20,746 nt of DNA from a virus. The stretch covers positions 1-20,746 of IMG/VR virus record IMGVR_UViG_3300006090_000003. One strand, 5' to 3'. Position 1 is the first letter of the stretch. The number at the start of each line of letters is the position of its first letter. This document shows positions 1,770-18,890 of this stretch, in pieces. A model generated the notes under the pieces. The model was not told the origin of the DNA. It worked only from the letters and a program-made list of their open reading frames with translations, and ran no database searches. The translations under genes and the position numbers were made by a program.

Positions 1770-2020
1770 TATAAGGCCTCCTTGTTATTGGTTGTTAAAT
1801 CTTTCGGTCCAAAAAGATTTAGATTTGTTTTTGTCGTCAATACTACAGGGGTATCAACTTCAACAACTTTTTTAACATTACGTCTTTTAGTTGTTTTTTT
1901 TGTTTTCCTTTGTAGCACCGATGGCTCGTTGTATGACCAACCATCTATCAGCCGTTGCTGGACTTGTTTGTTTCCAACAATTTCTGAATTCCCGAATTTA
2001 TCCCATAATTGAATACTCAT
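1769..2020 (-). CDS. Small hypothetical protein between tail terminator and tail tube
   Basis: Encodes 83 residues if started at the ATG at 2020, which overlaps the previous stop (TAATG) and has AAAGGAG upstream. A longer frame to 2053 would overlap the tail terminator gene and is less likely. The N-terminal third (MSIQLWDKFGNSEIVG) contains an aromatic/Gly motif; the middle (about residues 38-52) is very basic (KTKKTTKRRNVKK); the C-terminus holds NLFGPKDLT. I recognise no family. A small basic protein here may be a virion or tail-completion component, but this is only positional inference. Confidence 0.6.
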   Translation of the reverse strand: MSIQLWDKFGNSEIVGNKQVQQRLIDGWSYNEPSVLQRKTKKTTKRRNVKKVVEVDTPVVLTTKTNLNLFGPKDLTTNNKEAL

Positions 2021-2457
2021 TATAAAACTCCTTTTACATATTGATAGACGCATTGAACGGTAATTATTATTTCCCCTAATGGTAATTCTCTTTCAATAAC
2101 TTCTATGTTTGTTATACTTGTGCTCACGCCGTGTATGTTAGTATCTGCTAACGTAATATCTCTATCACGTGATACTTCCATTATTTCCTCGATGCGTTCG
2201 ACAAGTTCATTTTTGGCGGTGTCTAATTGTGTGCCGCGAACATAACACTTTAATTGGTAATCAATTGTTCCTTGTCTTAAGTCAGTAGATATGTCTTCTC
2301 TTGATTCATTCATACTATTCATTAAGATAGCGGGGAATTGTGTTATTGCTATTTTAGATACGTCAAAGAATTCTCTGCTCACTAACCCCAACGCAGGATT
2401 GGTTATGTTTTGTAATTGGTTAAAAATATTTGTTGCTATGTTTTCTCTTGCTGACAT
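2020..2457 (-). CDS. Tail terminator-like protein
   Basis: Encodes 145 residues. It lies between the head-tail adaptor and the tail tube gene, where siphoviruses carry the tail terminator, which caps the tail tube and joins it to the head. The sequence has the usual pattern of this family: an N-terminal helix (ENIATNIFNQLQNI), a VSREFFDV strand, then FPAILM, an ID(Y)QLKCYV strand, a long helix (AKNELVERIEEIMEV), and C-terminal strands ending in a branch-rich IIITVQCVYQYV. ATG at 2457, overlapping the preceding stop (TAATG); no strong ribosome site, so translation is probably coupled to the upstream gene. Confidence 0.65.
   Translation of the reverse strand: MSARENIATNIFNQLQNITNPALGLVSREFFDVSKIAITQFPAILMNSMNESREDISTDLRQGTIDYQLKCYVRGTQLDTAKNELVERIEEIMEVSRDRDITLADTNIHGVSTSITNIEVIERELPLGEIIITVQCVYQYVKGVL
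2023..2036 (-). promoter_or_regulatory. Small hairpin with the Shine-Dalgarno GGAG as its loop
   Basis: TAAAA (2023-2027) pairs with TTTTA (2032-2036) and the mRNA loop is GGAG, the ribosome site of the 83-residue gene starting at 2020. A five-base AT stem is weak alone, but it resembles the larger elements at 2913-2958. Confidence 0.3.
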
Positions 2458-2906
2458 TATCTTATAAGCCTATTATGATAAAATGTTTGTTTTTCACCTT
2501 CACTAAATGTGCCGGAAGAATCTAAATCATATGAAACACCTACGGCTAATATCGAGTCAAACTCTTCATTAAACTTTTCTTTGTAGTAATGTAGTTTTTC
2601 TCTAAATGAATCGCCTTCTACCTCGAATTTTGATAAACGTGGGTAAATGTATTGATACAGAACGTGATATACAGCCGCTCTTGTAAATTGACTGCTATCT
2701 AATCTGCTGGGTGATAATTTAGTATTTGCTCCTATAACACTTACGTCTCTTGTGCCGTATCTTGCTGTAGGATACCATTTTATGTTTAATAGTCTTATAA
2801 GGTCATCATACGTCTTCTCGTGTAAATCACTGAAGTCTTGGATGCCATAGTTTTTTATGTCTGGTTCGTATTCAAGTATATCTGAATCGCTTGCGAATGT
2901 TGCCAT
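2457..2906 (-). CDS. Head-tail connector / adaptor protein with an EF-hand-like loop
   Basis: Encodes 149 residues. It follows the major capsid gene and precedes the tail terminator, the position of gp6-like head-tail adaptors that sit under the portal. It is mainly helical: DILEYEPDIKNYG at residues 8-20, then DDLIRLLNIKWY, and a long helix around residues 75-115. Near the C-terminus, residues 127-138 read DLDSSGTFSEGE, which fits the calcium-binding EF-hand loop (D1, D3, S5, G6, hydrophobic 8, E12). The ATG at 2906 is preceded at 12 bases by an AAGGA that sits in a hairpin loop. The adaptor role is inferred from position and fold style. Confidence 0.62.
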   Translation of the reverse strand: MATFASDSDILEYEPDIKNYGIQDFSDLHEKTYDDLIRLLNIKWYPTARYGTRDVSVIGANTKLSPSRLDSSQFTRAAVYHVLYQYIYPRLSKFEVEGDSFREKLHYYKEKFNEEFDSILAVGVSYDLDSSGTFSEGEKQTFYHNRLIR

Positions 2907-2912
2907 AATAGA

Positions 2913-2958
2913 TAAAAGTCCTTCTTTTAATTTAATACAATAAAGTCCTTCTTTATTG
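2913..2958 (-). promoter_or_regulatory. Two tandem hairpins presenting AAGGA in five-base loops
   Basis: The first hairpin read in mRNA has a perfect 8-bp stem: 2938-2945 (caataaag) pairs with 2951-2958 (ctttattg). The second has a 6-bp stem, 2913-2918 with 2924-2929. In both the mRNA loop is AAGGA. The shared core is a 13-base exact direct repeat (2915-2927 and 2942-2954), 27 bases apart. The proximal AAGGA is the only ribosome site for the connector gene at 2906. This 128-base gene-free gap also contains the terminator at 2979-3011. Confidence 0.6.
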
Positions 2959-2978
2959 CTGTATTATTTATTTAATAT

Positions 2979-3011
2979 AAAAAAAAGGCCCCAGATTGCT
3001 ACAGGGCCTTT
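2979..3011 (-). terminator. Intrinsic terminator downstream of the major capsid gene
   Basis: In mRNA sense AAAGGCCC (3004-3011) pairs with GGGCCTTT (2984-2991) around a 12-base loop, and a run of eight U follows (2979-2986). It starts 24 bases after the capsid stop codon. It would end or reduce transcription after the capsid gene and lower expression of connector and tail genes relative to capsid. Confidence 0.88.
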
Positions 3012-3034: not shown

Positions 3035-3910
3035 TTAGTTAATTTGTTTGTCGCCTCTTACTAATACTGCGTATGCCGCTTGAACAATAGCATTACCTCT
3101 TGCTGTCGTTCCCACATATTCCGTATTACGAAGGCTGGCATCACGTTGGGTCTCAATTTTCAAAGGTCTTTTTAAAACGTGTCCAAATGCTGTTGGACTA
3201 AAGACTGCTCCCAAAGCGTCTGTAGAAACAGAATCTGCCGCTACTACCGCTGAAGAAAACATTTTCACATTGAATAGTCTTCCTACGTATGCTGATTTGC
3301 CGATCGCTTGATCACCAACTGAAGATAAAACATTAGCCGCAGTTGAATACCCTGCTGTTGTTAAAGTTTTTGCTATGTTATATGCTTGACTTGGATGTAA
3401 TACTGCTACGTAATCTCCGTCAGCATCTGTAGGTGCTGATTGACTTCGTAAAGTATAAACCGCTTGAAGAATATGAGCCGGTGTTAATTCCGTTCCACTT
3501 CCACCAACATTTTGTGAAATGTTGCCTTCTGTAAAGAACGCAAAAGCATCCGTATCAATTTTCTCTGCGATCGCATTTCCTATCATAATCCCTACATCGG
3601 AACCCATATTTCTTGCTGTGGATTCTGATAAAAGATCTGATACATCAACTCTCGCACCAATTTCGCTTGCCGCGATACTAACGCTTGATGTTGATGGATT
3701 TAAAGATGAAAGGTCGTCTTCTTGCCCTGGGGCAGATGCTTGAACACTTCCATATATAGGAATTTGAGCCGTTAAGCCCGGGCTTCCTGTCATATCATAA
3801 ACTTTGAATACACTTGCCGCTATAGATTTTTCTTGTAAAGTAAATCTTGCTTCCTGCAAAATATTCGTTAGTAATGATGTATCACCCGTTTGTAGTTCTG
3901 GACTTGCCAT
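3035..3910 (-). CDS. Major capsid protein (HK97-fold type)
   Basis: Encodes 291 residues, directly after the scaffold gene, as usual. Typical features are the N-terminal helical part (TSLLTNILQEARFTLQEKS), a Pro/Ala-rich strand region (GLTAQIPIYGSVQAS), the segment EIGARVDVSDLLSES, GNAIAEKIDTDAFAFF, and C-terminal strands including GRLFNVKMFSSAVV and TTARGNAIVQAAYAVLVRG. This is the layout seen in many marine siphovirus and podovirus capsid proteins of HK97 fold. GAGGAG lies about 9 bases before the ATG at 3910. An intrinsic terminator follows. No prohead protease gene is found nearby, so maturation may not need one or it lies elsewhere. Confidence 0.85.
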   Translation of the reverse strand: MASPELQTGDTSLLTNILQEARFTLQEKSIAASVFKVYDMTGSPGLTAQIPIYGSVQASAPGQEDDLSSLNPSTSSVSIAASEIGARVDVSDLLSESTARNMGSDVGIMIGNAIAEKIDTDAFAFFTEGNISQNVGGSGTELTPAHILQAVYTLRSQSAPTDADGDYVAVLHPSQAYNIAKTLTTAGYSTAANVLSSVGDQAIGKSAYVGRLFNVKMFSSAVVAADSVSTDALGAVFSPTAFGHVLKRPLKIETQRDASLRNTEYVGTTARGNAIVQAAYAVLVRGDKQIN

Positions 3911-14994: not shown

Positions 14995-15612
14995 CTAACT
15001 ATAGAATTTAACTATTTTTTCTTTTTCTTTACAAATTATTATGTGTGTTTTTTGTTGTTCTTCTACTGCTATTTCCCATCCGCAAGTAGGATTGTAATAT
15101 GTATAAACTATTTTTGTTGGGTCCATCCCAATAGTATGAACAATAACCGTTGGTAATGACTTAATGCTTGTAGTTAAACTAATAGTTGTTGCTTCTTTAG
15201 GACATTTCTCGAACAAGTTATTAAATTGATTTGGTGTTTTTGATGTTTTTGGTGTTTTTGGTGTTTTCGATGGTTTGGAAGTTTGGTGGATCTTTTTCTT
15301 TGGTTTATCAATTATATCTATAATTTTTGGTCTGTCTTCATCAACAAAATAATCCGCTTCTAATGTTTTAGCACTACGGCTTCTTATTTTAAGATTACCC
15401 ATCATTATCCATTTGCTTGGTGCTAAAAGTTTGTTGTCTGCCATATCCTTCCAATTTTTATAATTTCTCATTTTAGGATTTAGTTGTAGGCTCCACCCTT
15501 GTTCTAATTTGTCGTTTATTACAACCTCGAACACACACTTATAAATTGTTCCTGTCCATTTTGTTTGTGTTTTTGATGGATATGGTCCTAAATGTGTTAA
15601 ACATCCTTCCAT
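14995..15612 (-). CDS. Two-part hypothetical protein with Lys-Thr-Pro linker
   Basis: Encodes 205 residues from the ATG at 15612, which overlaps the upstream stop (TAATG) and has AAAGGAG upstream; an earlier in-frame start would overlap the HNH-like gene. An N-terminal part of about 110 residues (tryptophan-rich, with PSKTQTKWTGTIYKC and GWSLQLNPKM) is joined by a repeat linker (PSKTPKTPKTSKTP) to a C-terminal part with EKCPKEATTISL and YYNPTCGWEIAVEEQQ. No family recognised. It lies just before the fibre block. A 58-base AT-rich gap to the next gene contains no clear promoter. Confidence 0.6.
   Translation of the reverse strand: MEGCLTHLGPYPSKTQTKWTGTIYKCVFEVVINDKLEQGWSLQLNPKMRNYKNWKDMADNKLLAPSKWIMMGNLKIRSRSAKTLEADYFVDEDRPKIIDIIDKPKKKIHQTSKPSKTPKTPKTSKTPNQFNNLFEKCPKEATTISLTTSIKSLPTVIVHTIGMDPTKIVYTYYNPTCGWEIAVEEQQKTHIIICKEKEKIVKFYS
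15233..15268 (-). repeat. Nine-base tandem repeat coding for a Lys-Thr-Pro linker
   Basis: Four near-identical nine-base units (ggtgttttt, with one or two changes) follow each other and encode repeated Lys-Thr-Pro or Lys-Thr-Ser. The run forms a flexible linker and can change length by slippage. Confidence 0.75.
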
Positions 15613-15914
15613 TATTTTTTCTCCTTTGTTGATCTTGGTCCAATAAAACAATTTTGTTTATTCCAAGGTTTGCCTTCATCATATCTATGTAATTGATAAC
15701 TATCGGCTTTTTTACCTCGCTTGTCCATACAATCTGCCCAAAAATTCCAATAATCAGCAAATACAAGTTCCCATCCTTCATCTCTAAAATGTGCTTGTGC
15801 TTTTGCTAATAGATACCATCGATTAACAATACGTTTATCGTTGCTTGGTCCATATTTCCATCTATCCGGGAACTTTAAACCTTTTTGTCCGCTTACATAT
15901 CCTCTAAATGTCAT
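15612..15914 (-). CDS. Small HNH-like protein (possibly degenerate nuclease)
   Basis: Encodes 100 residues. The C-terminal half, DYWNFWADCMDKRGKKADSY followed by QLHRYDEGKPWNKQNCFIGP, copies the pattern of small phage HNH-like proteins (S-x-x-L-x-R-x-D ... W-x-x-x-N-C). The usual HNH residues are only partly present: H76 and D79 with N88 and C89, but no clear metal-binding His pair, so activity is doubtful. It may be a remnant or a DNA-binding member. The ATG is at 15914, two bases after the previous gene. Confidence 0.45.
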   Translation of the reverse strand: MTFRGYVSGQKGLKFPDRWKYGPSNDKRIVNRWYLLAKAQAHFRDEGWELVFADYWNFWADCMDKRGKKADSYQLHRYDEGKPWNKQNCFIGPRSTKEKK

Positions 15915-18374: not shown

Positions 18375-18890
18375 TTAAGCCGTTTCCTTTTCTAACTTAT
18401 TAATGTAAGTTGTTTGTTTAGGGTTTTCATCTTTAATAGTATCCCAATCAATTGTATAACCTAATTCGTCAAGAGCATTTACATAATTTGAAAGCATACA
18501 TTCTCTACTTTCAACATCTGGATAATGCTCTTCTTCATATACATCATAATCGTGTATAGAGTAAAAGTAAGACATACAAGGTGCTCCGCCAATTATATCC
18601 CATAACCTTTCAGCAACCTCTCGTTGTTCTTTACTATCCATTTTTTCAACTTTATCATAATCTAAATAAGTCTTGAAACTACCATAATAGTCTGTATCAA
18701 TATCTTCTATTAAATCTAATAGTTTTTTATCTAATGGGTTTTTACTTTTTTTTAATTGTTCCATCACTTCTTTATACATTCTTGTAGTTTGTGTTTTATG
18801 TAATGGTATATCTAAAGGCCAAAAGCAATAAGCCTCACCATCTTCCATTCCATAAGGAGTATTTGTGTGTATAGTAGTCATATGTTCCAT
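18375..18890 (-). CDS. Hypothetical acidic protein, 171 residues
   Basis: Acidic and aromatic, mainly helical; parts include MYKEVMEQLKKSKNPLDKKL, YYGSFKTYLDYDKVEKMDS and YSIHDYDVYEEEHYPDVESR. It ends in KETA, similar to other genes of this operon. GAAGG lies 6-7 bases before the ATG at 18890. No family recognised. Confidence 0.55.
   Translation of the reverse strand: MEHMTTIHTNTPYGMEDGEAYCFWPLDIPLHKTQTTRMYKEVMEQLKKSKNPLDKKLLDLIEDIDTDYYGSFKTYLDYDKVEKMDSKEQREVAERLWDIIGGAPCMSYFYSIHDYDVYEEEHYPDVESRECMLSNYVNALDELGYTIDWDTIKDENPKQTTYINKLEKETA

Follow-up and report, generated by a model that had tools for sequence, protein, structure and literature searches.

What do two adjacent RNA hairpins with the same AAGGA loop do in front of the connector gene of an uncultured tailed phage? 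The window, i.e. the whole stretch of DNA analysed here, is the 20.7 kb IMG/VR virus record IMGVR_UViG_3300006090_000003, which shows no DNA similarity to named phages. Nearly all of its genes lie on the minus strand, including those for the terminase, portal, scaffold, major capsid, connector, tail terminator and further tail proteins.

Tandem hairpins precede the connector gene

From the capsid to the connector gene, the minus strand carries in turn a terminator-like hairpin, the element TAAATAAATA, hairpin 1, hairpin 2 and the ATG at 2906. The features are as follows.

3035-3910 (-), major capsid gene, upstream of the connector leader
2979-3011 (-), intrinsic-terminator-like hairpin, AAGGCCCTG...TGGGGCC followed by a T run, 3' of the major capsid gene; from sequence and fold
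2965-2974 (-), TAAATAAATA, late-promoter-like -10 element; from conservation and enrichment of TAAATA
2938-2958 (-), hairpin 1, arms CAAUAAAG and CUUUAUUG around the loop AAGGA, 8 bp (9 with an outer G-U pair); from fold (z -6.5) and covariation in relatives
2913-2929 (-), hairpin 2, arms UAAAAG and CUUUUA around the loop AAGGA, 6 bp; weak alone (-1.8 kcal/mol), with pairs 2-4 covarying in relatives
2457-2906 (-), head-tail connector/adaptor gene, 149 aa; from predicted-structure matches and gene position
2020-2457 (-), tail terminator gene; weak match to PHROG 3907 (tail terminator)

Both loops are closed by a G-C pair and the two copies are spaced by 27 bases; an earlier note on this DNA, which had reported AAGGA-loop stems of 8 and 6 bp at that spacing between the capsid terminator and the connector gene, was exact in its description. 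The AAGGA of hairpin 2 ends 12 nt upstream of the ATG and is the sole Shine-Dalgarno-like sequence there; the loop therefore doubles as the ribosome site in this phage, the only one of the connector gene, as the note had also held. The other genes of the window have ordinary open ribosome sites. Two smaller look-alikes to which the note had drawn attention, before the genes at 2020 (GGAG loop) and 14936 (AGGA loop), proved to be chance, as relatives keep the ribosome site and lose the arms.

The terminator-like hairpin is found at the same place in many relatives. In DSL-LC06 (L115, OR003941), an HNH endonuclease gene (18451-18870) is inserted between the capsid and connector genes, and the connector hairpins are intact.

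Compensatory base changes define a conserved RNA structure

Folding of the single sequence gave a mixed picture. Hairpin 1 alone folds at -7.7 kcal/mol with a z-score of -6.5, far better than its shuffles, whereas hairpin 2 alone (-1.8 kcal/mol, z -0.2) is no better than shuffles, and the fold of the whole leader in the window is unremarkable (z only -1.4 to -1.8). Computational folding, one of the checks put forward in the earlier note, thus speaks for hairpin 1 and not for hairpin 2 taken alone. The comparative test was decisive and strongly positive.

Leaders were gathered solely by similarity of the connector protein, independently of any RNA feature. The first search yielded 34 IMG/VR contigs with recognisable versions of the hairpins, and widening it with alignments of diverse connectors gave 192 leaders, 127 of them distinct and 124 long enough. 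GNAGGAC occurs at least 24 nt upstream of the start in 115 distinct leaders, and three of the other 12 are incomplete; that is, hairpin 1 was found in 115 of the 124 sufficiently long leaders. As hairpin 1 was located by its loop letters only, the statistics on its stem are not circular. The fixed loop letters partly follow from this selection, but the presence of the loop in 115 of 124 leaders does not.

Pairs 2, 3, 4 and 5 of hairpin 1 are formed in 102, 101, 100 and 100 of 102 distinct sequences, respectively, compared to 85, 50, 40 and 40 expected with independent sides. These four pairs are kept in 98-100% of the sequences with several pair types at each, and pair 6 is formed in 86 of the 102. 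The same holds for hairpin 2 over a shorter helix, with pairs 2-4 formed in 82, 75 and 67 of 82 sequences. Both sides change at five of the six pairs of hairpin 1 and at three of the four of hairpin 2. In the structure counts over 47 and 36 diverse sequences, 94-95% of the cells are paired, compared to 57-62% in shuffles, and the covariation score reaches 0.86-0.93, against 0.20 in shuffled alignments and 0.03-0.20 in slid controls. Moreover, RNAalifold, unprompted, returns exactly the two helices. Each hairpin usually has an NAGGA pentaloop, whose closing G-C pair is constant or nearly so across relatives, and the stems vary freely; at other GNAGGAC sites in the same 2.9 Mb, such stems are rare. 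Long-range pairing between the hairpins is disfavoured, as stems 1 and 2 are unlike each other in most phages.

The covariation check proposed earlier thus came out strongly positive. The earlier note had taken relatives that keep AAGGA and lose its complementary arms as the outcome that would speak against the structure; what the relatives show favours it, and their compensatory changes decisively uphold the claim that it is not due to chance. By these changes and by their constant position before one gene, the tandem hairpins have the marks of a conserved structured cis-regulatory RNA; very probably they control the connector gene as a genuine RNA element that had not been described before.

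In the records searched, the hairpins mark connector leaders

We searched the window, DSL-LC06 and ten IMG/VR contigs of 29-32 kb with a covariance model of the tandem hairpins. The best match of the model was the connector leader in all 12 genomes or large contigs, with ten strong matches (E 4e-4 or better) and two weak but correctly placed ones (0.085 and 0.98), the latter being variants with a CAGTA loop in hairpin 2. Elsewhere in these 12 records, and throughout three pelagiphages without the hairpins, no match was better than E 1; in 63 contigs that contain distant capsid relatives, none was better than 0.4. In a gene-independent scan of IMG/VR for two AGAAGGACT sites, the two-hairpin form occurred, among the matches listed, only before connector genes; the rest of the matches listed were coding repeats and chance pairs. 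The tandem pattern also occurs in 43 stretches of GTDB genomes, mostly coding repeats with 3-bp stems. The few stretches with longer stems were rejected as the same element, being repeated units and not comparable leaders. Altogether, close to two hundred contigs of uncultured phages were examined, and in them the structure goes with a single structural gene.

Seven leaders lack the hairpins before the connector gene found by similarity (L255, L263, L266, L268, L274, L275 and L279). These loci contain a tandem duplication of the connector, in which TAAATA and both hairpins precede the diverged second copy, beside the tail genes. Contig G006 (L403) has the same arrangement, with the hairpins before the second connector copy. 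As the duplicated-connector loci carry them there, the sequences indicate that the hairpins travel with the head of the tail gene block. In the leaders L386 and L387 the hairpins are missing altogether. Nor are tandem hairpins present in distant relatives, among them the pelagiphages HTVC111P, HTVC112P, HTVC202P and HTVC026P, where a terminator-like hairpin is followed by an ordinary, plain ribosome site.

The loops are kept where the ribosome site lies elsewhere

In the usual case the AAGGA of hairpin 2 is the Shine-Dalgarno sequence, 3-10 nt upstream of the ATG (12 in the window). In the clade L317-L341, NAGGA is kept in hairpin 2, up to 16 nt from the ATG, and is followed by a separate ribosome site of the GGAGG type. 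The hairpin-2 loops of other clades read CAGTA, CAGAA, AAGAA, AAGTA or AGGGA, with AGGA or AAGG in the 5' arm. Across the leaders, the hairpin-2 loop lies 3-16 nt from the ATG, and the two loops are spaced by 20-37 nt in 97 leaders. Hairpin 1 is never at the start codon and keeps G-NAGGA-C.

Since some clades retain such a loop in hairpin 2 with their ribosome site at another place, the pattern points to recognition of looped hairpins, and the loop is more than a displayed Shine-Dalgarno sequence. The idea that the loops display this sequence to set the dose of connector, also raised in the earlier note, therefore survives in part: the hairpins are so placed that their binding or melting would set translation, but display is not their sole role, given that hairpin 1 stands off the start codon and that several clades keep a loop of the NAGGA or NAGNA type with the ribosome site outside it. 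The conservation of AAGGA in hairpin 2 is partly explicable without a protein, being itself a ribosome site. In loops that start with U, pairing of this U with the final A could reduce the loop to an AGG triloop, and what is recognised may therefore be AGG on top of an N-A pair.

A promoter-like element lies upstream of the hairpins

TAAATA is present upstream of the hairpins in all 115 of 115 leaders, 14-38 nt before the hairpin-1 loop and mostly 15-20 nt. Pooled over these phages, it outnumbers every other hexamer with the same composition in the 90 nt upstream of genes (82 occurrences versus 33-66), but it is not the top one in the AT-rich window taken alone. Late-promoter-like TAAATA elements stand upstream of several genes of the window (2974-2965, 4728, 10920, 14992-14971 and 19917, all on the minus strand), in phages of about 30 kb. 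The other TAAATA-led genes are without the hairpin element. TAAATA would thus be a late-promoter-like element of general use, to which the hairpins are added at the connector. By analogy with T4 late promoters, transcription is predicted to start near the base of hairpin 1.

The connector gene and its probably coupled neighbour

The AlphaFold model of the connector is helical, with a pLDDT of 78. Its best matches in VIA-align are the neck protein of phage Mu (Z 8.4) and the connector of JBD30 (Z 7.6), followed by the adaptors P22 gp4 and Sf6 gp7 (Z ~4), at about 10% identity; the six highest-ranking matches are, without exception, proteins of phage necks or tail complexes. A Z of 8 for a helical protein is by itself only suggestive of a connector, and the gene position agrees with this assignment. 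The protein has no match in Pfam and no clear match in PHROGs, where a few members give weak ones. No connector homologues were found in GTDB genomes, and the hosts are therefore not readable from prophages. The C-termini of the connectors (C-terminal region of 2457-2906 in the window) often contain a stretch DxDxSGTxxxxE, which resembles an EF-hand calcium loop, and end in RLxR.

In the window, the start of the tail terminator gene overlaps the connector stop codon (TAATG). As the next gene starts at the connector stop or within 9 nt of it in 114 of 121 loci, translation of the tail terminator is probably coupled to that of the connector.

Proposed function and alternative explanations

We consider it reasonably likely that the hairpins act in cis as an RNA operator, located at the 5' end of the late transcript with which the connector and tail genes begin, and that this operator is read by a protein and limits translation of the connector. 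We infer the binding, the binder and the sign of control. The protein, most likely encoded by the phage and possibly the connector or another neck protein acting autogenously, would recognise the looped hairpins, with hairpin 1 as a strong anchor and hairpin 2 as a weak site on or against the ribosome site. One protein bridging both hairpins would hold the ribosome off, so that less connector and coupled tail terminator would be made relative to the capsid protein, which is encoded before the terminator. Each virion of known phages contains about 12 copies of the connector.

Simple feedback by the connector is weakened, because in the duplicated clade the hairpins accompany the diverged copy and the tail genes, and not the closest connector orthologue. 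An alternative candidate binder is a family of small basic proteins (15612-15914, minus strand), present in 12 of 12 hairpin-bearing records and in none of three hairpin-less HTVC pelagiphage genomes. It weakly matches PHROG 16521 (function unassigned there), and its relative in DSL-LC06 is annotated as PacI-like. This family could equally be a factor that reads TAAATA or a marker of the clade.

The position right behind a promoter-like element would be compatible, too, with a role in RNA stability or in transcription. The hairpins might stabilise the 5' end of the mRNA and serve as a landing pad that raises translation without a regulator, with hairpin 1 shielding the transcript end and both loops presenting AGGA to the tail of the 16S rRNA. 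We regard this as unlikely, if deserving of some weight: hairpin 1 starts a few bases past the predicted transcription start, AGGA is complementary to the usual anti-Shine-Dalgarno, and the ribosome sites of the other genes in the window are of the ordinary open kind, but the fixed pentaloop size with its G-C closing pair, the retention of the loop where the ribosome site is elsewhere, and the restriction of hairpins to the connector among several TAAATA-led genes are all left unexplained. We give lower credence to a transcription element that acts on RNA polymerase to pass later terminators, in the manner of lambda boxB with its ligand N, or of the put RNA of HK022. Its place would be apt, just past the promoter-like element at the head of the tail genes, and a pentaloop with a middle purine and a final A recalls boxB, as tandem stem-loops recall put; however, hairpin 2 is pinned to the start codon by the 3-16 nt between loop and ATG, and the other TAAATA-led genes are again without hairpins.

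Similarly improbable is repression of the kind known from E. coli glgC, in which CsrA/RsmA of the host, or a protein much like it, would occupy both GGA loops. The layout is the classic one, with two GGA-loop hairpins 20-37 nt apart and one on the ribosome site. By contrast, the loop here is a pentaloop closed by G(-3)-C(+1), with a stem that covaries in that register, instead of an ANGGAN hexaloop closed at -3/+2; position -2 is A in 82, T in 19 and C in 1 of 102 sequences, and hairpin-2 loops such as CAGTA are without any GGA. On the phage side, CsrA is encoded in 0 of 16 related records. As for a functionless chance inverted repeat around the ribosome site, the unremarkable whole-leader fold in this genome would fit, but the massive compensatory change in relatives already refutes it, and the rarity of such stems at other GNAGGAC sites agrees; we attach practically no probability to it.

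Returning to the protein-read operator, we would tentatively go further and propose, as a conjecture that may well fail, a new class of translational operators in tailed DNA phages, in which paired NAGGA pentaloop hairpins are bound by a neck protein or a dedicated phage protein, meter the connector and the coupled tail terminator, and are common to a large group of uncultured phages. If protein-read, the element illustrates a way in which these phages could match neck parts needed in few copies to capsid proteins needed by the hundred, and it provides a compact new RNA-protein pair for study. The duplicated connector and the relocated ribosome site are natural experiments for testing it.

Comparison with known systems

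Rfam 15 gave only BjrC68 on the window, under its cut-off and on the terminator, and no match on four relatives. Searches of the open-access literature for such a tandem GGA-loop motif returned nothing comparable, and a paper on structured RNAs of Pelagibacter makes no mention of phage or GGA loops. The nearest named motif from the literature is TwoAYGGAY, listed from human gut, gammaproteobacteria and Clostridiales (Weinberg 2010, PMC2864571). Judged by its name, this motif also has two hairpins with conserved GGA-containing loops; the name equally sets it apart, as AYGGAY has a pyrimidine where the five-base loops described here have A before GGA.

At E. coli glgC, a bridging dimer of CsrA/RsmA represses translation. 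Such operators resemble the connector leader in having two GGA-loop sites, about 25 nt apart, with one over the ribosome site. They differ from its NAGGA pentaloop with fixed G-C closure, its 5-10 bp hairpin-1 stems and its single target per phage genome. The loop of a CsrA site is an ANGGAN hexaloop, in most cases closed by pairing of AC with GU, and CsrA bridges sites 10 to 63 nt apart (PMC7652899). Two GGA sites within this spacing, one on the ribosome site, are found here, with exceptions in hairpin-2 loops. Functionally, CsrA offers the closest analogy, but the geometry of the loop does not agree with its defined site.

Lambda boxB is a pentaloop hairpin and HK022 put consists of two stem-loops, near the start of phage transcripts; unlike them, the present element belongs to one structural gene and keeps to its start codon. 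The -10-like TAAATA upstream of several genes resembles in its letters a T4-type late promoter (TATAAATA), in genomes that differ from that of T4 in being about 30 kb long. In the coat-protein operators of the RNA phages MS2, Qbeta and PP7 and in the RegA and gp32 operators of T4, a phage protein represses translation at an mRNA hairpin or site at the start codon. The connector leader likewise places a phage mRNA hairpin at a start codon, where we infer protein binding; it differs in its tandem similar loops and in its occurrence in tailed DNA phages other than T4. We file the tandem hairpins not as members of the CsrA or TwoAYGGAY families but as kin to the translational operator hairpins of phages.
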